The translations under genes and the position numbers were made by a program. From NCBI GenBank assembly GCA_017434045.1, contig JAFRGA010000062.1, forward strand, positions 1-64,000: a DNA stretch of 64,000 nt, in the 5' to 3' direction. This document shows positions 30,636 to 42,044 of this stretch, one piece after another. The stretch is from Eggerthellaceae bacterium (GTDB lineage Bacteria > Actinomycetota > Coriobacteriia > Coriobacteriales > Eggerthellaceae). Each line of letters opens with the position of its first letter. Position 1 is the first letter of the stretch. Below the pieces are notes generated by a model, which was not told where the DNA came from, did no database searches, and saw only the letters and a list, made by a program, of their open reading frames with translations.

Positions 30636-30740
30636 GAGTCCCGAAAAGACTAGGACGCTCACCAGCGGTCCCTTATGGCTGCTTCCTCCCGGACCTGACC
30701 AGGTTCGGAACATAGCGCCGTCCTAGTCCTTTCGAGACTC
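30636..30740 (-). ncRNA. ffs: Signal recognition particle RNA (small bacterial type)
   Basis: On the minus strand the conserved apical domain GTTCCGAACCTGGTCAGGTC, CGGGAGGAAGCAGCC and ATAAGG is present. The two ends pair through a long helix (GAGTC/GACTC, CGAAA/TTTCG, GACTAGGACG/CGTCCTAGTC). The RNA is about 105 nt and lacks an Alu domain. It binds Ffh and targets membrane proteins. Confidence 0.93.
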
Positions 30741-30838: not shown

Positions 30839-31675
30839 CTAAAACCCTTGGCTCACGTATTCCGCAAGCTCCTCGGCACGCATATCTTCCAACCGCCGAT
30901 AGTCTGCGTGAAGCGCCTTGGCAAGCCGTTTTGCACGCTGTTGGGCCGTGCGAGTACCACCGCTCGAATCGATGAAGTAAATCGGCACGTTCCTCTTCTT
31001 GCAGAACTCGCCAAATCCGCTGATGACATGCGCTGACGACATGTTCCGCGAACGATCGTAGCCGCCATCTGAGAGGAGAACCACCTCGGCAGGCTCGTCC
31101 TGCACCCCATCCAGCAGCCGCATGGCAAGCCTAAACGCATCGAGCAGCGGCGTCGAGCCGCCACCCTTGGCCGCATCGATACGCTGAGCGGCCATTTCAG
31201 CGGAAGACGTGAGCGGCAAGATCAGCCGCGCCTTCATCCCTCCGTAGCCGACAATCGCGACTCTCGTTCGCGTGACATAGGCATCGCTGAGTAACGAGAC
31301 CACGCATCCCTTCACAAGCGACAAGCGTCCCGACGCGATCATGGACCCGCTCGTGTCTACGATGAACAGGATGTTCCGCCTACCGCGTCCGGCGATCTTG
31401 CGATACCGCACATGCTCCTCGCGCAAACCGTCTTCGAGAGTCTCACCTGCTATAAGTTGGGTGACGACGCTTCCGACAGCATGGATTTCGCCTGACGAAC
31501 GGTTCTGGGTGTAGCCGATGCAACGCCCCTTCTGCATCGTCTTTCCCTTGATGCCGCGGCGCGCCAAGATAGCCCGGTCAACACGGCTTTGAACCGATTC
31601 TATCGGCTTTGCGCGAAACTCGGCCGTCTTGACGTCGGTCAGGGGCAGCGTCCGGCTACGCGCTGCCCCTATGCT
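30839..31675 (-). CDS. VWA part of chelatase D subunit, probably read by -1 frameshift
   Basis: This frame encodes 278 residues of a ChlD/CobT-like VWA module. The MIDAS motif is complete: IVDTSGSM (DxSxS), GGSTPL (Thr) and LLSDGGYD (Asp). The basic stretch RAILARRGIKGKTMQKGRC before it resembles the linker preceding VWA in ChlD proteins and continues upstream without a normal start: the first possible codon is a TTG at 31567 with no ribosome site. The frame is open back to the A-run at 31675-31681 at the end of the AAA gene and is in the -1 frame to it. A slip there would give a 619-residue AAA-VWA protein. Initiation at the TTG would give 242 residues. Confidence 0.85.
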   Translation of the reverse strand, partial: SIGAARSRTLPLTDVKTAEFRAKPIESVQSRVDRAILARRGIKGKTMQKGRCIGYTQNRSSGEIHAVGSVVTQLIAGETLEDGLREEHVRYRKIAGRGRRNILFIVDTSGSMIASGRLSLVKGCVVSLLSDAYVTRTRVAIVGYGGMKARLILPLTSSAEMAAQRIDAAKGGGSTPLLDAFRLAMRLLDGVQDEPAEVVLLSDGGYDRSRNMSSAHVISGFGEFCKKRNVPIYFIDSSGGTRTAQQRAKRLAKALHADYRRLEDMRAEELAEYVSQGF

Positions 31676-31681
31676 TTTTTT
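31641..31681 (-). promoter_or_regulatory. Programmed -1 frameshift signal
   Basis: On the minus strand the AAA gene ends GGA AAA AAA GCA TAG. The seven A's (31681-31675) form a slippery A-AAA-AAA in the right phase. Four bases later starts a perfect 10-bp stem, AGGGGCAGCG with CGCTGCCCCT around a 10-nt loop, covering the stop codon. Slippery run, short spacer and hairpin are the classic components. After the slip, translation continues AGC ATA GGG into the VWA frame. Confidence 0.8.
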
Positions 31682-32697
31682 CCTTCGTCCACAGCTCCCG
31701 ATGGCAGCTCGACGGGAACAGACACGGGTTCAGCGTCGGACACGTCCTCGTCCTTGGGCGCTTGGATGCCGCGTTCCTCAAGCGCGTTCATCGCGCGCTC
31801 CAACACCTTGTCGTCGAGGGCGACCTCTTCGAACGGAAGGCGCTTCAAGCGGTGCGGCAAAACAAAGCGCGCCGCCGTCAGGACATCGTCCCGCGTCACG
31901 CGACCGCGTCCATCGAGAGCTGCCTCAGCCCGAGCAGTGCGCATCATCGCGATATCGGCACGGTAACCGTCGACCGACACCTCCGAGCACAACCCTGAGG
32001 AGAATTCAGCCACGTCATCAGGAAAAACAACGTTAGGATACAGTTCCTTGGCGCGCGCGATCTCGAAGGCCAGGCGCTGCTCGCTCGCGCTGAAGCGTGC
32101 ACAGAACGCTTCAGCATCGTCCTCGAACGCTTCTTGCCTGCGGACGAGCTCAAGGCGTTCTTGCAGTGAGAGGCTGCCCGTGACGCGCACCGATAGCCCG
32201 AACCGATCGAGCAACTGCGGCCTCAATGAACCCTCTTCGGGATTCATCGTCCCCACCAACACGAATCGTGCGGGGTACTCCTCGGACATGCCCTCTCGTT
32301 CGACATGGCACACGCCTGTGGCGGCGGCATCGAGCAACAAGTCGACAATATGGTCTTCCAACAGGTTGATCTCGTCCACGTAAAGAATCTGGCCGTCAGC
32401 TTCCGATAGAACGCCGGGAACGAACTTGCGCTCGCCGCTCTTCATGAGGGCGCCCACGTGCAGCGTGCCGACCACCCGGTCCTCCGTCGCATTCAGGGGA
32501 AGTTCAACAACGCGCGTTTTATCTCCCAGGATTCCCGGCATCGCGCGCACAGCCGTCGTCTTCGCCGTACCGCGTTCGCCCAATATGAGCACGCCACCGA
32601 TTTTCGGCTGCACTGCAACGAGCAGAAGCGCCCGCTTCATAGCGTCTTGACCGACGATCGCAGAGAAAGGATAGGAGATGCGCTTTCGCTGGCTCAC
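31669..32697 (-). CDS. Metal-chelatase AAA+ subunit (ChlI/BchI-like)
   Basis: A 342-residue AAA+ protein of the magnesium/cobalt-chelatase family. It shows the family start YPFSAIVGQDAMKRALLL, Walker A GERGTAKTT, Walker B ILYVDEINLLEDHIVDLLLD with the ChlI hairpin around it, GTMNPEEGSLRPQLLDRFGL, and a C-terminal helical lid. The acidic, Pro/Val-rich tail resembles the start of a D-subunit linker. With a downstream -1 frameshift one gene could give both the short I-like and the long D-like subunits. No large catalytic subunit (CobN/ChlH) is in the window; cobalt insertion fits the corrinoid proteins nearby. Confidence 0.9.
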   Translation of the reverse strand: MSQRKRISYPFSAIVGQDAMKRALLLVAVQPKIGGVLILGERGTAKTTAVRAMPGILGDKTRVVELPLNATEDRVVGTLHVGALMKSGERKFVPGVLSEADGQILYVDEINLLEDHIVDLLLDAAATGVCHVEREGMSEEYPARFVLVGTMNPEEGSLRPQLLDRFGLSVRVTGSLSLQERLELVRRQEAFEDDAEAFCARFSASEQRLAFEIARAKELYPNVVFPDDVAEFSSGLCSEVSVDGYRADIAMMRTARAEAALDGRGRVTRDDVLTAARFVLPHRLKRLPFEEVALDDKVLERAMNALEERGIQAPKDEDVSDAEPVSVPVELPSGAVDEGKKA

Positions 32698-33733: not shown

Positions 33734-34762
33734 CTATCCAGCGGCAACTTCCGTCTCTCTAACCGCCTCGAGCACGGCGCGAACGTTCTCGGATGGGGAG
33801 CCCATGCCGAGTCCGCATGCCGGGGCGATGATATCGGAACCGTTACGTATGCACGTCCTGGTAAGTTGGCGTACCTTCTCGGCATCCTTGCGCTCGATGG
33901 CGAACGTGCTCACATTGCCCATGACGATGCGCCCAGGCAGGTTCTTGCGTGCCTCCTTGATGGGCACGACCGCGTCGAAGGACAGTGCATCGGCGCTGAT
34001 CTGCGCAATCTGATCGTACACCGAGTGCATTTGCCCGCATATGTGCACGATGGTCTTCGCACCTGCATCTTGGCACGCACGCTGGAGCTTCTCGATGTAG
34101 GGCACGGCGTATTCCTGGAACGGTCCCGGTCCCATGATCTCTCCGGTGCCACTGGGGTCGGCGATTGCGATGACATCAGCTCCAGCTTCGATCTGGGCAA
34201 TGCCGAAGCGGATGAGCTCGTCGGTAATCCAATCCATGTACTCGTGCGAAAGCTCCCTCTGTTTGCGCAGCTGCTTGTAGTACTTCACGGCATCCATGAC
34301 GGAGCTGGCCACGCTGATCGGGCCGACGAGGTTGCCGACGATGGGCACCCCATCGTCGTACGACTTGAGAATCTTAATCGCGTCGAGCACCACTTTCGCA
34401 CGACCCGATTCCAAATCCATCGGTTTAACCTGTTTGTAGTTGCGCACGTCGTCAAACGCATAGTCGGTCACATGCGGCTCGCGGTCCTTGCGCCCCATGG
34501 TAACCTCGGCGCCCATGGCCTCGGCCTCGACGGTCATGCAGAACGGCACCCCGTAGTTTTCGAAAAAGCCCTTGTCGTAGACGGCCTTTGCAAGCGCCGC
34601 CATCTTCTCGGCATCGTAATGGGCCTCGGGGAAGAATACCTCGATTTCGTCTTGCAGACCGACTGTGACCATATTCATCATTCCGCCAGAGCAGATGCAA
34701 GGTGGACGATCAACATCCTCTCCATCGAGCACCGAAACGAGCCTGTCGCGCGCAGTAAGCAT
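33734..34762 (-). CDS. URO-D-family corrinoid methyltransferase (MtaA-like)
   Basis: A 342-residue TIM-barrel protein of the uroporphyrinogen-decarboxylase/MtaA/CmuA family. It has the zinc ligands of the methyl-transferring members: His and Cys in VHICGQMHS and a late Cys in APACGLGMGSPSEN. The N-terminal TARDRLVSVLDGEDVDRPP and GNLVGPISVASSVMDA are also typical. Such proteins move a methyl group between methyl-cobalamin and a thiol, or, in some members, take it from the primary substrate. It is the last gene of the cluster, after the DUF1638 gene. Confidence 0.87.
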   Translation of the reverse strand: MLTARDRLVSVLDGEDVDRPPCICSGGMMNMVTVGLQDEIEVFFPEAHYDAEKMAALAKAVYDKGFFENYGVPFCMTVEAEAMGAEVTMGRKDREPHVTDYAFDDVRNYKQVKPMDLESGRAKVVLDAIKILKSYDDGVPIVGNLVGPISVASSVMDAVKYYKQLRKQRELSHEYMDWITDELIRFGIAQIEAGADVIAIADPSGTGEIMGPGPFQEYAVPYIEKLQRACQDAGAKTIVHICGQMHSVYDQIAQISADALSFDAVVPIKEARKNLPGRIVMGNVSTFAIERKDAEKVRQLTRTCIRNGSDIIAPACGLGMGSPSENVRAVLEAVRETEVAAG

Positions 34763-34860: not shown

Positions 34861-34887
34861 CATTAAAGGGGACTGTCCCCTTTAATG
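34861..34887. repeat. Palindromic repeat, CATTAAAGGGGAC type
   Basis: Perfect 13-bp arms (CATTAAAGGGGAC) around a central T. It overlaps the last two codons of the DUF1638 gene, supplying its CAT codon and TAA stop. Confidence 0.9.
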
Positions 34888-35682
34888 TTTCTTCTCTTTC
34901 CAGTCGTCGAAGTCTTCCTGCATAATCGCCCGACCCGGCTCGCAGACCAGGATGTCGCAATCCCATCTACCGGACAGGAGCTTCTCCATGACGTCGTTGC
35001 TGCCCGGATCGACGCGAATGCCCACATCGAGTGCCTTAGCGCATGTCTGAGCGTAGCTTTCCACATCTTCGAGGTCATAGCAGCCGTTGTCGATGAGCGA
35101 AACCGCATGGTAAGCGCCCCACATCGACTTCATCAGGCGATCCGCTCGACGCTCACCGTATTTGCGCACCCACAGCTCACGCTGCCCAGTGACCATCGTG
35201 GCATCGTGCGCCCATCCGCGCGTCAGGTACATGACGCCCGCCTTCGCAAGGCCGCGGCAGGTGCGCTCGCCCGCTTGCAGCATCAGGTTGACGCAATCGT
35301 CGAAACGCGGCATGACGAGCGTTGCGCTCTTGCACGACAATCCCACAGCCCCGTTGCCGCACAGGCCGATGGCAAGCAGCACCTGCGTGGCCCCCGCTTC
35401 CTCGGCTTCGTCAATCATCTCCTGCAGTTTGGCGCGCAGGACATCGGGCTTCTCGTGGTAGCCTCGATCGACCCACATGATGCGCATACCTCGCCCGTGT
35501 TTCTCCCAAGCACAACGAACCTCGTCCTCCATCATCGCGCAGGCGATGAGAATGCGCCTGTCGGCGCCATCCTCGGTCATGCCGTAATAAGGCGCCGTGG
35601 CAGGGACCTCTGCAGGAGATCCGCTCCAACAAATGCCCGGTACGTTGGGCATGGACACCACATGCGATGATGAAGGCTCCAT
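34882..35682 (-). CDS. DUF1638 protein
   Basis: A 266-residue cytoplasmic protein of the DUF1638 family, which recurs beside corrinoid methyltransferase genes but has no established role. Visible conserved segments are ILIACAMMEDEV, LLAIGLCGNGAVGLSCKSATLVMPRFDDC, YLTRGWAHD and CDILVCEPG; the several Cys and His could bind metal or a cluster. The start ATG 35682-35680 overlaps the stop of the upstream gene (TGATG), so they are translationally coupled. The 3' end is formed by a palindromic repeat. Confidence 0.8.
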   Translation of the reverse strand: MEPSSSHVVSMPNVPGICWSGSPAEVPATAPYYGMTEDGADRRILIACAMMEDEVRCAWEKHGRGMRIMWVDRGYHEKPDVLRAKLQEMIDEAEEAGATQVLLAIGLCGNGAVGLSCKSATLVMPRFDDCVNLMLQAGERTCRGLAKAGVMYLTRGWAHDATMVTGQRELWVRKYGERRADRLMKSMWGAYHAVSLIDNGCYDLEDVESYAQTCAKALDVGIRVDPGSNDVMEKLLSGRWDCDILVCEPGRAIMQEDFDDWKEKKH

Positions 35683-36560
35683 CACGCAAGCACCAGCTCT
35701 CGGATCTTGCCGTTCGCGATGGCCACACCCGAATTCTTGATGCAAGCCTGACCCACGATCTTCAGCTGACCGCGCAGCTGGAGGATAGCCTCGAAGAAGT
35801 CGACCTTCTCCCCCAGATCGTGAACCACCACGTCAGCTAACCCCGTATCAATAAGCGCGTAGGCGAACTTCGGGCACAGCTGCAACACCATGGTGCCGTC
35901 GATGTGCTCGACGAGCTTTTTCATGAAGGGGTACGTAAACTCGCGCGTCGACCACTCCATGAGCTTGGGGCTGAGAATCTCGAGCGATCCGGCAGAATCA
36001 GAATACGTGATGATCTCGACCCCGCAATCCCGCGCTTCATCCACGTAGCGAAGCAGCTGGTCGCCGATCTTGTTCATGACCTCGACCGTCTTCTCGGGCT
36101 GCTTGCGCTGCATCTTGATCACCTTGCGCGACTCCATCAGTGACTGCATCTGAGTCCAAGGGCCGACTATCTCCAAGCATACATGCTCGCCGGCATTCGC
36201 CAGCATGCGGCACGCCTCGAGAACCTCGCGTACGCGCCCGCATGAAAAATCGATATCGGGCAGGGCGAGGAAGTCTTCGGGCGTCTCGCAGATGGGAACC
36301 GCGGAACGCGGACCCGTATTGGCGTCGCCGTAGTTGACGTTGCCGCCTACCGCTTCCATTTCGACCGTACGGCAGAACGGAAGCAGGCAAAAACCCTCGT
36401 TGTCATGCTCCTTGATGGCGAGCGCAAGCTTAGCCATGGTTTCAGCATGCTTGTAGGCATCGGGGAAATCCAAGCCGAGCCCAGACGTCACCTCTGCGCT
36501 CACGCCAACGGAGTTGGAATAGTCGCAATGGAAATCCCTGATTTTCGTTTGTTCGGACAT
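35682..36560 (-). CDS. URO-D-family protein lacking the zinc ligands
   Basis: A 292-residue member of the same TIM-barrel family, starting at ATG 36560-36558 after GGAGAG. It is about 50 residues shorter than the other two in the cluster. The HxC motif is altered: Gln227 stands where His is expected, with Cys229 retained (MVLQLCPKF), and no Cys is found near the C-terminus where the third ligand lies. Methyl transfer to a zinc-bound thiol is therefore unlikely. It may bind the primary methyl donor or the corrinoid protein. An Arg/Glu/Gly-rich EMEAVGGNVNYG segment is shared with the family. Confidence 0.75.
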   Translation of the reverse strand: MSEQTKIRDFHCDYSNSVGVSAEVTSGLGLDFPDAYKHAETMAKLALAIKEHDNEGFCLLPFCRTVEMEAVGGNVNYGDANTGPRSAVPICETPEDFLALPDIDFSCGRVREVLEACRMLANAGEHVCLEIVGPWTQMQSLMESRKVIKMQRKQPEKTVEVMNKIGDQLLRYVDEARDCGVEIITYSDSAGSLEILSPKLMEWSTREFTYPFMKKLVEHIDGTMVLQLCPKFAYALIDTGLADVVVHDLGEKVDFFEAILQLRGQLKIVGQACIKNSGVAIANGKIRELVLA

Positions 36561-36752
36561 ATTTAGCTCTCTCCAAGCGTAAGTAAGAATGCGATCTGGC
36601 GGATGGGATGCGAGCGATTCTGCAGGTACATTCTTAATCCTTTTCAAATGCTAACCGAAGCCAAGCGAGCACCCCATCCGCCAGGCCGCATCCCTTTGCT
36701 GGTCAGGAGGTGCGAGCAATCGTCCCCATCGAACCAAACGCTTCATAACCCC

Positions 36753-38552
36753 CTACGACACTGGGAACATCAGGCAATCCGAGAAGAGCCGCTCGTAATT
36801 CTCGGTAGCGCCCAGCTCCATGTAATCCATCTTGTGGGCGAGGCGTTCCATGTCGCGCTTGACATCAGCCGACATGAGCGCCATGTAGGCACCGGTTTTC
36901 GATGTGTTGCCGGCGTAAATGATCCGATCCTCCACCTCAGGTGGCAAAATGCCCGTGCCGGTGATGCTGTTGGGAGTCAGATGCGCACCGAACTGCCCGG
37001 CAATGACGACCTTGTCCAAATCGTCCATGCTGATGCCCGCTTTGTTCAGCAGCGCTACGAACCCGGACAGGATAGCGCCCTTCGCCAATTGGACCTGGCG
37101 GACGTCGCCTTGCGTGACGAGCAGCTGCTCAGGTTCCTCGGTCAGGATGAACGCCCTCTTCCCGTCTTCGTCCTCCACTATGCGCCCACGGCGCCAATCG
37201 CCTTCGTCCAGCTTCGCCAACTTGACGAAGGCGCCGTTCTTGCGCACGAACCCGCAGCGCAGGAGCTCGCGCATGACGGCCAAGATGCCGCTACCGCAGA
37301 GACCCGCAGGCTCCGTGTTGCCAATGATCTTGAACTCGTTGCCGCTCTCGGTGACCTTGATCTCCTCGATGGCCCCCTCGGCAGCGCGCATGCCGGCGCT
37401 GATGTTCATGCCCTCAAGGGCGGGACCCGCCGCGCATGAGCAGGACAGGAGTTTGCCATGCGAAGAGAGCACGATCTCGCCGTTTGTGCCAATGTCGATG
37501 AACAGCACGTTGCCCGGCTCCTTCTCGAGCTCGCACACGTACGCGCCAGCTACGATGTCGGCTCCGATATAGGCCGACACATGCGGTAGCGCATACAGGC
37601 GCGCGCCCGGGGCCACGTCGATTCCGATGGAGGCGGCCGGCAAATCCTTGGCGCGTGCGAAAGCGGGGGCGAAGGGCGCCTTGCCGATGCAGCGGGCGTC
37701 CACGCCGAGCAACATGTGCATCATCGTGCAGTTCGCACCGACCGTCAACTCGTAGATGGACGTGCGTGCAACGCCGGTCTCTGCGCAGATCTCGCCGATC
37801 ATGCCGTTGATGGATTTGACCATGACCTTCTGAAGGTTGGCCACACCGTTGTCGGGATGTTCGAGCTCGTAGGTGATGCGCGTGAGAACGTCGAGCCCGA
37901 ATACCTTTTGCGCGTTGATCTGCGAGGCGTTTGCCATGCGCTCGCCCGTTGCCAGATCCACGAGCTCGCAAACCACGGTGGTCGTGCCGATATCTATGGC
38001 GACACCGTACAACGAGCCGGTCGTGTCGCCGGGTTCGAGCCGTACAACCTGGTTGCCATGGAGCACCGCCGTCCAGTCACCTGGAACCAAGCTCGCCTCC
38101 GCAAGTACGTCGAGCGCGATGGCCTGCACGCCCAGCTGCTCGCATATCTGGTCCTCGAACGGCGTCTGGTCCTCGAGCGTAGGCCGGTGCACGAACACCG
38201 TCTGCTTTCGGGTTTCGGGCGCGAACTCGAAATCCGGCATGATGCCGGTGGTCAGAACCTCGTGCTTGCGCTCCTTGTGCACAAGCTCAATGCTCAGGTC
38301 CTCGGTAGGATCGATCAGGCATGAGAGGCGGATGCCCTGATCCAGGTCGCCTTGCGGCAATAGGCGGCGCTCCGTGTCCGACACGTCGAACTCCTGTCCG
38401 CCGACAAGTTTCACGCGGCATTTTCCGCACGTTCCCTTGCCGTTACAGGGATTGTTCACGAACACATCGTTTTCCAGGAGGATCTCCAGTAGCGATTTCC
38501 TCGGGACGTACTCGAACGCCCGCCCTCCCGGTTGCACCACCAATGTAGGCAC
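36753..38552 (-). CDS. Corrinoid reductive activator, RACo-like (2Fe-2S + ASKHA)
   Basis: A 599-residue protein. Residues about 1-90 are a plant-type ferredoxin domain with CNGKGTCGKCRVKL and a later SCL (C-x5-C-x2-C-xn-C). A middle linker leads to an ASKHA ATPase domain (about 205-599) with VAIDIGTTTVVCELVDLATG, FIDIGTNGEIVLSSHG and GLCGSGILAVM. RACo proteins use ATP to reduce inactive cob(II)amide on corrinoid proteins to cob(I)amide. I chose GTG 38552-38550 because AAGGAGG lies 8 bp before it; no ATG fits. The neighbouring corrinoid protein is its likely target. Confidence 0.9.
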   Translation of the reverse strand: MPTLVVQPGGRAFEYVPRKSLLEILLENDVFVNNPCNGKGTCGKCRVKLVGGQEFDVSDTERRLLPQGDLDQGIRLSCLIDPTEDLSIELVHKERKHEVLTTGIMPDFEFAPETRKQTVFVHRPTLEDQTPFEDQICEQLGVQAIALDVLAEASLVPGDWTAVLHGNQVVRLEPGDTTGSLYGVAIDIGTTTVVCELVDLATGERMANASQINAQKVFGLDVLTRITYELEHPDNGVANLQKVMVKSINGMIGEICAETGVARTSIYELTVGANCTMMHMLLGVDARCIGKAPFAPAFARAKDLPAASIGIDVAPGARLYALPHVSAYIGADIVAGAYVCELEKEPGNVLFIDIGTNGEIVLSSHGKLLSCSCAAGPALEGMNISAGMRAAEGAIEEIKVTESGNEFKIIGNTEPAGLCGSGILAVMRELLRCGFVRKNGAFVKLAKLDEGDWRRGRIVEDEDGKRAFILTEEPEQLLVTQGDVRQVQLAKGAILSGFVALLNKAGISMDDLDKVVIAGQFGAHLTPNSITGTGILPPEVEDRIIYAGNTSKTGAYMALMSADVKRDMERLAHKMDYMELGATENYERLFSDCLMFPVS

Positions 38553-38685
38553 CCTCGGCGCCTCCTTCCAATCTGCAACGCTTGACTTAGGTGGACCCCA
38601 AGTTGCGCTTGCCTGTAATCCCGCCGCCTGCTTCGACGGCGAAAATGCGGCCAAAGAGGAAACCCCTTTGACCGCATACTTATCC

Positions 38686-39342
38686 CTATTCGATGCCGAC
38701 GAGCTGTTTCGCGACCGCCACGGCCTCGACTGCGTTGACGGAATATCCTTCTGCACCGATCTCGTCTGCAAACTTGCGCGAGATGGGGCTTCCACCCACC
38801 ATGACCTTAACGCGGTCTCGGATGCCGGCTTCCTTCAGCTTCTCGATCACGGTGCCCATGCCGCTCATCGTCGTTGTCATGAGCGTCGACATCGCGATGA
38901 TATCGGCGTCAACTTCTTTGGCCTTCTCGACGAAAGCATCGAGCGGCACGTCGCGGCCGAGGTCGTAAATCTCGAACCCAGCAGTCTCAAGCATGATCCT
39001 GACCAGGTTCTTTCCGATGTCGTGGGTGTCGCCTTCCACAACGCCGATGACGACCTTCTTGGCCTCGCCATCCACATCGGACGCCTCCAGATGCGGGCGC
39101 AGAACCTCGAGGCCGGCATACAGCGCATCCGAGCAGAGCAGCACGTCGGTCACGAAGTACTCTTCTTCGTCGTAAAGCTCGCTCGCCTTGTTCATGCCCG
39201 CCACGAGGCCTTCCATGATGCCGTCGTAAGCGTTGTAACCCGCTTCCAGGTACTCGTTGCATACGTCGACCACGTCCTCGTCTTCCATCTCGACGACGCA
39301 CTCGTATAGCTTCTCAATCAACTCTTCCTTGCCAGCGGCCAT
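38686..39342 (-). CDS. Methyltransferase corrinoid protein
   Basis: A 218-residue MtaC/MtbC-type protein. A helical cap domain (1-85) precedes a Rossmann B12-binding domain with the His-on motif GDTHDIG (about residue 104), MSTLMTTTMSGM and VMVGGSPIS. The His replaces the lower cobalamin ligand. It carries the methyl group between the methyltransferases of this cluster and is reactivated by the downstream RACo-like protein. Confidence 0.95.
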   Translation of the reverse strand: MAAGKEELIEKLYECVVEMEDEDVVDVCNEYLEAGYNAYDGIMEGLVAGMNKASELYDEEEYFVTDVLLCSDALYAGLEVLRPHLEASDVDGEAKKVVIGVVEGDTHDIGKNLVRIMLETAGFEIYDLGRDVPLDAFVEKAKEVDADIIAMSTLMTTTMSGMGTVIEKLKEAGIRDRVKVMVGGSPISRKFADEIGAEGYSVNAVEAVAVAKQLVGIE

Positions 39343-39564: not shown

Positions 39565-40683
39565 CTAAGCGTTCAGCATTCCCTTCGGCATGCAGCCCTT
39601 CTTCGCGCCGGCGCCATAGATGCGCGCAGCGTAAACGAACGCTTCGAAATTCTCGCGCGATGTGCCAATGGGCACCTGGCAACCTGTGCCCAGGTTGTAT
39701 CCCTTCGGGCTCTCGGCACCGTCGCGGATGCAGTTCTTGCAGGCCTCGACGACCTCCTCGGGCGTGCCGAGCAGCATGACATCGACTGGGGCCACATTGC
39801 CCACGAGCGCGAACTTGTCACCGAGCTGCTCCTTGGCATCAGACAAGCTCTCGCAGTTGTCGACGCTGAAACTCGCAACCTCCAACGTCGCGATCTCGTC
39901 CCACAACGGACTCGTCTTGCCGCAGATGTGCAGACCGGGCTTCTTTCCGAGCAACTCGGTCAGCCCCGCAATCAAATCCTCGAGCTTAGGCTTGGAAACC
40001 TCGACGAACTGCTTATGGCTGAGGATGCCCGCGCAGGTGAACGGATCGCAGACGTTGCATCCGCCGCCGCCGAACTCCTCCACGAACATCTTGACCCACG
40101 ACAACGTGTGGTAGTTCGCAAGGTCCATGAGCTCGAAGACCGCGTCCCGATGCTTGACCGTCTCGCGAAGCAGCTTGTCGGCGCCGAGCACAGTCGATGC
40201 CACGGTAATCGGCCCGGTGACCATGAAACCTATGCCCATCTCCGGGAAATGATCCTTCAGTATCCTCAGGCGCTCGAGAATCGCCAGATACACCGGGTGA
40301 GTGAACGGGTCGATGTCCATGAGCGTGTTCAGGTCCTTGATGTTGTCAATAGCGGGTGCCACCACACGGTCGATGCCGACCTCGGGGAAGAAAATATCCG
40401 ACCCGAGGGCCTGGCCAACTGTACGCAAGCGCAAACCGGAGGCGAGGCCGACGATGCCGAACTCCTCGCGGCGCCTCTCGAGAATGTCGATATGCACCTT
40501 CGGATCGTCTCGCCACTGGGCAGTCGTATAGCCGAAAATGCCCGCCATGGCCTCCTCGTTGCTCTGAATGGAATAGGGGATGTGATCGGCTTCTTCACCA
40601 GAAGCGTAAGCCATCGCACGCTCCCCCTGCGTCATCTTGTCGACGTATGTCTCGAAATGACGCTTGATGTCATCTGATAGCAT
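39565..40683 (-). CDS. URO-D-family corrinoid methyltransferase, longer form
   Basis: A 372-residue TIM-barrel protein of the MtaA/CmuA family. The zinc motif is intact: HICGKTSPLW and a late Cys in GTGCQVPIGTSREN. Compared with the 342-residue paralogue it has an extended N-terminus and the metal-rich loop FGGGGCNVCDPFTCAG, whose three cysteines are unusual. It is placed directly before the corrinoid protein gene, the usual place of a dedicated methyltransferase, so it could be either the substrate-specific or the thiol-methylating enzyme. Confidence 0.85.
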   Translation of the reverse strand: MLSDDIKRHFETYVDKMTQGERAMAYASGEEADHIPYSIQSNEEAMAGIFGYTTAQWRDDPKVHIDILERRREEFGIVGLASGLRLRTVGQALGSDIFFPEVGIDRVVAPAIDNIKDLNTLMDIDPFTHPVYLAILERLRILKDHFPEMGIGFMVTGPITVASTVLGADKLLRETVKHRDAVFELMDLANYHTLSWVKMFVEEFGGGGCNVCDPFTCAGILSHKQFVEVSKPKLEDLIAGLTELLGKKPGLHICGKTSPLWDEIATLEVASFSVDNCESLSDAKEQLGDKFALVGNVAPVDVMLLGTPEEVVEACKNCIRDGAESPKGYNLGTGCQVPIGTSRENFEAFVYAARIYGAGAKKGCMPKGMLNA

Positions 40684-40889: not shown

Positions 40890-42044
40890 TTACAGCATTT
40901 CAAGGAATGCCTGGATACGCGTGGTGAGCTGTCCGGCGTCGGTCGTTGAATAATCTGTCTCGACCTTCAGGAACGGCAAGCCGCGCTTCTCTGTGACGTG
41001 CTTCTCGATGCTGTAGGACTCGACGTTGTAGGTATGGCAGCCCTGCAGCGTCATCTCGACGACACCGTCAGCTTTGAACTCGTCGATGAGCTCGTCGAGC
41101 AGCTCGAAGCGGTAGGTATCGGGCGACATGACGGAGCAGCCGATCTTGAAATAACGCTCGGCCAAGGCCTCGTACACATCGGGATTCTCCTCGTCAACCA
41201 GGCGGTAGTAGTTCTTGAGGCCCGTGCAGTTCTCGTAGCCCACGATGACGCCGCCGTTCTCTTCGATGATGCGGGCGATTTTCTCGGTCGCGCCACCCAT
41301 CGGGCAGCCCGATACGATGATGCGCGGCTTGTGGCCGATCTTGGCAGCGTTCTCCTCGGCTTCCTCGAGGATGCGGTCCTTCATCTCGCGCAGCTGCTTG
41401 ACCGCCTGCTCGCGATCAAACGTAAACGACGCACCGTACACGACCTTGAACAGGTCGTAACCCATGACGGGAACCGGATCCGCCTTCATGATGCTCAGCA
41501 GGTCCAAGGCCGCCTTACGCTCCTCGTTGCGCAGCTTGATGGCGTCGCGGATGGCGTCTTCGGTAATCGTGACGCCGAAGAAATCCTCGAGCTTCTCCTT
41601 GAAGCGGATGACCTCGTTCTTCCACATCTTGAAGCCGTCCTCGTCCTGCGCGTTGGGCAGCTGCATGACGTAGGTCGGCTTGAAATCGTTCATGATCTCG
41701 TACATCTTCTTCTTGCCGTCGCAAGTCGTCTCACCGACGATCAGATCGCTGAAATAGAAGAACGGGCACTTGTCGGCCTTGCCGAAACCGTAGCTCGACT
41801 TGATAAGCGGACAGAGGCTCGCGGGGAGATCCTGCTCGGCAAGGGGAATGGTTTCATCCGACATCGAGCAGAGGCCTACGGTGGCGGCGTTCATGGCCAT
41901 CGGCAGCTCGACGGGCACATACGTGCAGTACGTTCCCACGAGAGGCAAGTCTTTGTCTTTCTGCTGTTTGGCGGAAAGGAAGGCTTTCTTCCTGCCCTCT
42001 GCGAACTCTTCGAAAATCTCAGGCAGTTCTTTCCTGATGTCCAT
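40890..42044 (-). CDS. Double-cubane-cluster reductase-like protein (HgdB/BcrC superfamily)
   Basis: A 384-residue member of the 2-hydroxyacyl-CoA-dehydratase beta-subunit superfamily. VPVELPMAMNAATVGLCS, CPLIKSSYGFG, LIVGETTCDGKKKMYE, SGCPMGG, GYENCTGLKNYY and LQGCHTYNVES place it with double-cubane-cluster proteins (DCCP), which hold an [8Fe-9S] cluster and do low-potential reductions. Its usual ATP-driven partner (BadF-type, about 260 residues) is absent; the RACo-like protein is the only ASKHA ATPase in the cluster. It is the first gene of the methyltransferase set and diverges from an XRE regulator. Confidence 0.85.
   Translation of the reverse strand: MDIRKELPEIFEEFAEGRKKAFLSAKQQKDKDLPLVGTYCTYVPVELPMAMNAATVGLCSMSDETIPLAEQDLPASLCPLIKSSYGFGKADKCPFFYFSDLIVGETTCDGKKKMYEIMNDFKPTYVMQLPNAQDEDGFKMWKNEVIRFKEKLEDFFGVTITEDAIRDAIKLRNEERKAALDLLSIMKADPVPVMGYDLFKVVYGASFTFDREQAVKQLREMKDRILEEAEENAAKIGHKPRIIVSGCPMGGATEKIARIIEENGGVIVGYENCTGLKNYYRLVDEENPDVYEALAERYFKIGCSVMSPDTYRFELLDELIDEFKADGVVEMTLQGCHTYNVESYSIEKHVTEKRGLPFLKVETDYSTTDAGQLTTRIQAFLEML

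Follow-up and report, generated by a model that had tools for sequence, protein, structure and literature searches.

Two AAA+ products very probably made from one chelatase-type gene of Eggerthellaceae by programmed -1 ribosomal frameshifting

Frameshifted magnesium-chelatase genes were predicted in Pseudomonas, Burkholderia, Delftia, Herpetosiphon and in methanogens (PMC3711429, 2013), and A_AAA_AAR sites and potential stem-loops were later discussed for such fs-chlD genes (PMC5009743, 2016). A stretch of 64,000 nucleotides from the MAG of an Eggerthellaceae bacterium, in the following called the window, contains a ChlI-like AAA+ frame that is followed by a VWA frame in another phase, which raises the question how the two halves of this gene are expressed and which cellular system their products serve.

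The gene is located on the minus strand, which an earlier reading made from the letters of the DNA (the sequence-only reading) had left unstated, and the coordinates of its features and of the neighbouring genes are collected in Table 1. The Shine-Dalgarno sequence AAAAGGAGG precedes the GTG at 32697 of the AAA+ frame, and this frame ends with GAC GAA GGA AAA AAA GCA TAG, in which the seven A's stand in slippery phase two codons ahead of the zero-frame stop; both the final codons and the slippery A7 had been described correctly. The A7 is the sole A/T run of at least seven nucleotides in the window; approximately 3.4 such runs are expected in 64 kb under a first-order Markov model, and they are thus, if anything, depleted. 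Translation of the -1 frame following a slip at A_AAA_AAA yields a fused AAA-VWA protein of 619 aa, and this length as well as the 342 aa of the zero-frame product, both given by the sequence-only reading, were reproduced. The VWA half is exactly in the -1 frame, as had been stated; however, this frame is open not just back to the A run but for 54 nt further upstream of the slip. No start codon is found within these 54 nt, so far in accordance with the claim that the VWA frame lacks a start, but TTG 31567 and ATG 31537, the latter with a weak AAGGG-like sequence upstream, are candidates 36 and 46 residues past the slip. A bacterial small SRP RNA (RF00169, 57.9 bits) is encoded just downstream of the VWA frame at 30639-30734, also on the minus strand.

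Table 1. Features of the frameshift gene and of the corrinoid gene array in the window.
Feature	Position	Strand	Remarks
VWA frame (-1), predicted to be entered via the slip	30839..31676	-	VWA_2; MIDAS DTSGS conserved
Putative stimulatory hairpin	31641..31670	-	10-bp stem AGGGGCAGCG/CGCTGCCCCT, 10-nt loop
Zero-frame stop TAG	31669..31671	-	
AAA+ frame (ChlI-like ATPase), zero-frame product 342 aa	31669..32697	-	GTG start 32697, AGGAGG; AAA_5, AAA_lid_2, Mg_chelatase
Slippery site A_AAA_AAA	31675..31681	-	T7 on plus strand
URO-D family methyltransferase (MtaA/CmuA type)	33734..34762	-	profile match
DUF1638 protein	34882..35745	-	profile match
URO-D family protein	35682..36647	-	profile match
RACo/RamA-type corrinoid activase (2Fe-2S + ASKHA)	36753..38795	-	profile match
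B12-binding corrinoid protein	38686..39342	-	profile match
URO-D family methyltransferase	39565..40683	-	profile match
HGD-D family protein, double-cubane-cluster reductase NF040772 match	40890..42044	-	524 bits, cut-off 350; proposed partner

The identities of both domains are fixed by matches to solved ChlI and BchD structures. For the AAA half, which carries the three AAA+ and chelatase domains of Table 1, the closest solved structure is ChlI (PDB 6l8d, E 3.7e-77), and for the VWA half (VWA_2, E 1e-13) it is the VWA domain of BchD (PDB 2x31, E 1.7e-9). The fused product matches the profile TIGR02442, "putative cobaltochelatase", in one single stretch from 60 to 604, and TIGR02442 is also the best NCBIfam model, under its cut-off, for the AAA+ frame. 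Scores stay below all curated chelatase cut-offs, namely 520 of 779 bits for TIGR02442, 329 of 467 bits for TIGR02030 and 280 of 500 bits for TIGR02031. Relatives keep Walker A (GERGTAKTT), Walker B (ILYVDEINLL), the NPEEG.LRPQLLDRF motif and the MIDAS D.SGS, and a Cys-containing insert, which follows Walker A in other ChlI-like proteins, is missing in most members of the Eggerthellaceae clade.

Among 138 genomes of the Eggerthellaceae family the frameshift gene was found in six, which are the window's own genome, G009, G421 (Eggerthellaceae MAG RGIG4379; same contig as L031), G422, G424 and G332. These carriers are six species from three genera, with G009 in the genus of the window's genome, and they range in completeness from 99% for the one-contig genome G332 and 96% for G009 down to four incomplete genomes of 70-77%, including the window's MAG with 77%. 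All six loci have their VWA half in the -1 frame. The slip sites read GGAAAAAAA in the window, GTAAAAAAA in G009, GAAAAAAAA in G421, CCGAAAAAA in G424 and GCAAAAAAA in both G422 and G332; the runs are A7 in the window, G009, G422 and G332, A8 in G421 and G-A6 in G424. The spacer from the slip site to GGGGC measures 5 nt in five loci and 8 nt in G424, the locus in which the slip site is only G_AAA_AAA. In the comparison of homologous loci that the sequence-only reading had proposed, phase, an A6-A8 run, spacing and the identical register of a 28-nt hairpin are retained in 6/6 loci, five of the hairpins being strong. An error of sequencing or assembly is ruled out by six genomes with the same arrangement. 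A decaying or misassembled fusion, in which the change of frame would be accidental, might be suggested by the 77% complete MAG from which the window derives, and MAG assembly could distort individual loci; however, six genomes from three genera, the one-contig genome among them, share the position of the frame change, and both halves are conserved, a conservation that already refutes this explanation and leaves it with virtually no probability.

Downstream of the A run, the perfect 10-bp stem with its 10-nt loop, placed four bases after the A7 and over the stop by the sequence-only reading, was borne out: the hairpin begins 4 nt past the A run and takes in the A and G of TAG. Its minimum free energy in the window is -22.2 kcal/mol (z -4.07), equalled by 0/200 shuffles, and the folding energy has P = 0.0002 when synonymous codons are shuffled under preservation of the -1 frame protein. 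Under the same codon-preserving null, P is 0.0004, 0.0022, 0.0042 and 0.0012 in four of the remaining loci and 0.049 in G332, where the hairpin is weak and its folding no better than chance (z -0.5). Core stem pairs are formed in 9/9 positions in five loci and in 7/9 in G332, and across the six loci 93% of the alignment cells pair, compared to 35-53% when the partner is slid. Pair changes consist of one swap of G-C to C-G and three cells changed to G-U; a change on both sides occurs at one pair only, a count that 84/500 shuffles reach, and the covariation support for the hairpin is modest by itself. The hairpin arms double as codons for the conserved GAA and LPL. An upstream Shine-Dalgarno-like element was considered as a further stimulator and rejected, given that GGGAG 13 nt upstream in the window and GGGGGAG approximately 10 nt upstream in G332 have no counterpart in the others, i.e., by eye such an element is not conserved across the six loci.

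Conservation of the protein, that of G421 included, starts at the slip, with KK-x-x-GAA....LP and then F.AKP.E....RV.RA..AR, and the linker immediately before the slip is variable and poorly conserved. This pattern bears on the explanation that the VWA half is translated on its own, without any frameshifting, by reinitiation or translational coupling after TAG from TTG 31567 or ATG 31537. Reinitiation was observed beside frameshifting in some of the tested fs-genes (PMC3711429), and the window does offer two candidate codons, a TTG 36 residues past the slip and, with its weak AAGGG-like upstream sequence, an ATG 46 residues past it. However, initiation at either codon would lose conserved residues; the stretch from the hairpin to the first ATG of the window shows dN 0.07 and dS 0.86 between the window's genome and G009, and the residues from the slip to this ATG are conserved with dN well below dS. 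Moreover, a start codon position common to all six loci is absent, and in G421, where the -1 frame extends no more than 6 nt upstream of the slip's end, neither ATG, GTG nor TTG occurs in this frame across 70 residues. The retention of A run, spacing and hairpin would also be unexplained under reinitiation, which gives no reason for keeping them, and we consider this route quite improbable.

Slippage of the RNA polymerase on the A run, by which some of the mRNAs would encode the fused frame, is likewise improbable. Such slippage has been described for runs of more than seven A's (PMC3711429), and seven or eight A's are present in 5/6 loci; yet G424 retains the gene with six A's, the window, G009, G422 and G332 have no more than seven, and a conserved hairpin 4-5 nt downstream is a requirement of the ribosome and not of the polymerase.

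Taken together, these sequence features make it very probable that the gene yields two AAA+ products by programmed -1 ribosomal frameshifting. Ribosomes at GGA AAA AAA would pause before the GC-rich hairpin 4-5 nt downstream; the majority would stop at TAG and release the AAA+ protein, and in a minority both tRNA-Lys would re-pair one base back, which would lead to the AAA-VWA protein. That slippage occurs in vivo, that it is ribosomal in nature and how efficient it is are points that we infer. As both products share one AAA+ domain, mixed rings would be expected as for ChlI/ChlD and CobS/CobT, with the VWA/MIDAS arm in contact with the client.

In a tree of the AAA domain the six Eggerthellaceae frameshift genes form one clade (100/100). 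A second frameshift clade consists of Desulfuromonadales and Omnitrophota genes with A9 runs, of which 1/4 has a strong downstream structure; these -1 chelatase loci are L037, L041 and L047 (Desulfuromonadales) and L038 (Omnitrophota), and the strong structure is that of L038. Other Coriobacteriia have in-frame fused genes, which group in a further clade (98/95), and a descent of the frameshift genes from them was rejected on account of these separate clades, although the root is unsure; with the same reservation about the root, the frameshift and the in-frame forms look separately acquired. Loci of Rhodobacterales and related loci that had been flagged as -1 were dismissed by gene length, as they hold separate chlI and full chlD genes in overlapping or nearby frames. 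Furthermore, L058 (4980-5172), on the contig of a rumen Lachnospiraceae MAG, encodes 58 AAA residues with 88% identity at the contig end; it is likely chimaeric and was left out of the comparison.

Concerning the function of the two products, the sequence-only reading had suggested the small subunits of a cobaltochelatase, i.e., of a classical CobNST-like cobalt chelatase for B12 synthesis. This role is held by fs-chlD elsewhere (PMC9227772), and the best profile is TIGR02442, putative cobaltochelatase, although under its cut-off. However, CobN/ChlH (PF02514) was not found in the window's genome, G009 and the essentially complete G332, the three carriers that the search covered, and among the 150 nearest relatives CobN was found in none except G093, a member of another family. 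An anaerobic route is indicated by CbiD in the same three genomes and by CbiK in 5/6 carriers, and close relatives without the frameshift gene are common. Carriers of an in-frame AAA-VWA gene occur both with CobN (G093, G192 and G234) and without it (G201). The absence of CobN in the genomes tested together with the presence of CbiK and CbiD makes the cobaltochelatase role very unlikely and leaves the suggestion unsupported, and since no CobN/ChlH was found and CbiK covers cobalt insertion, the client is probably not the H subunit of a tetrapyrrole chelatase.

The neighbourhood of the gene offers other candidates. In the window the genes run co-directionally in the order double-cubane, URO-D, B12-binding, RACo/RamA-type, URO-D, DUF1638 and MtaA/CmuA-type URO-D, followed by a small lipoprotein-like ORF and AAA-VWA; RamA-like and DUF1638 proteins were tied to B12 reactivation elsewhere (PMC5764234). 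The corrinoid setting noted in the sequence-only reading is thus genuine in the window but conserved only partly among the carriers: in G421 an orthologue of the MtaA/CmuA-type URO-D gene immediately precedes the AAA gene, and the array is away from the frameshift gene in G332 and G424 and is present without a frameshift gene in G085. In the latter genome (L119, G085:C84, 85% complete) a URO-D/DUF1638/RACo/B12 array was observed and no AAA-VWA gene was found, and its double-cubane-type gene differs, with 48% identity in a stretch that is truncated where the contig ends.

The double-cubane protein follows the frameshift gene more closely. Of the 138 genomes, the six carriers (6/6) and no others hold orthologues with 78% identity or more, and the next best has 58%, the cut at 78% having been chosen after the gap from 78 to 58 was seen; in 6/6 carriers the protein scores 504-524 bits against NF040772 (cut-off 350). 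If the two genes were independent, the chance of this exact overlap would be approximately 1e-10, and it is approximately 1/1260 when shuffled within the three genera, based on the minimum genus sizes seen. Two controls from the same stretch match the carriers less exactly, the URO-D gene being found in 4/6 carriers plus one non-carrier and the substrate-binding protein in 3/6 carriers plus one non-carrier. The double-cubane gene is directly upstream of AAA-VWA in G009, a 96% complete genome without a close URO-D orthologue; G009 is the only carrier in which the two are adjacent, and they are 1.3 Mb apart in G332. By these distributions the double-cubane protein appears as the most consistent partner of the frameshift gene. 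Between the window's genome and G009 (L091 8279-9433) it is 98% identical, with 77% for the AAA and 76% for the VWA half, and recent transfer or stronger constraint are possible explanations of the 98%. In G424 (L116 4041-5228) and G421 (L118 2926-4664) a cysteine desulfurase-like gene, and in G421 also a TusA-like gene, was identified by eye in the vicinity of the double-cubane gene.

An HgdC-like ASKHA ATPase adjoins two other double-cubane genes, one in G058 and the second copy in G421. Near the subtype considered here, no HgdC-type ASKHA activase was found in the stretches of the window's genome, G009, G332 and G422; in G421 an ASKHA activase is approximately 1.5 kb away beside the second double-cubane copy, and the contig of G424 is too short to judge. 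The AAA+/VWA motor possibly replaces the usual ASKHA activase of the double-cubane protein, and it would help to load or activate the metal centre of this protein or of the adjoining corrinoid system. On these correlational grounds, the double-cubane iron-sulfur protein may tentatively be named as the best candidate for the client, with the adjoining corrinoid system as the alternative. A frameshift motor that no longer serves tetrapyrroles and that builds or activates the double-cubane metal centre as part of corrinoid-based methyl transfer in gut Eggerthellaceae is an equally speculative picture, conceivable and not probable.

The mechanism class is already known, and the Eggerthellaceae gene adds a predicted member with a clear signal and in an unusual setting; in the main texts of the fs-chlD literature searched this family is not named. 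What is added is a compact and comparatively well-supported bacterial frameshift signal, in which the spacing hardly varies and the hairpin keeps a single register across three genera. It also sharpens the question which role chelatase-type AAA+/VWA motors play in organisms without an H subunit, for which the exact co-occurrence with one double-cubane subtype supplies a named and testable candidate client. Carriers of fs-chlD that have neither B12 or chlorophyll pathways nor the large subunit were listed before, Spirochaeta and Brevefilum are known examples in which the large subunit is missing, and such orphan chelatase-type genes were described as of unclear function (PMC9227772, 2022).

In E. 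coli, the frameshifting of three fs-chlD cassettes was 10% with A7, 40% with A9 and 63% with A11 (PMC3711429). Similar to fs-chlD, the AAA and VWA halves lie in overlapping frames with a -1 shift at an A-rich site and a structure downstream, and two subunits would derive from one gene. Unlike other fs-chlD genes, the Eggerthellaceae genes form a clade apart from those of Desulfuromonadales and Omnitrophota, which have A9 runs and in most cases no strong hairpin, and they occur, in the genomes tested, with CbiD/CbiK and without CobN. The A-rich heptamer, the hairpin shortly downstream and products sharing the AAA+ part are also features of the -1 frameshift of dnaX; here, however, it is the frameshift that would lead to the longer product, and an upstream Shine-Dalgarno-like element is not conserved in the six loci. 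CoxD, a BchI-like AAA+ ATPase involved in metal-cluster assembly (PMC3471820), is not the same protein and acts on another client than the one proposed as a candidate for the Eggerthellaceae motor; as a BchI-like AAA+ ATPase for metal-cluster maturation, it nevertheless sets a precedent for the proposed role.
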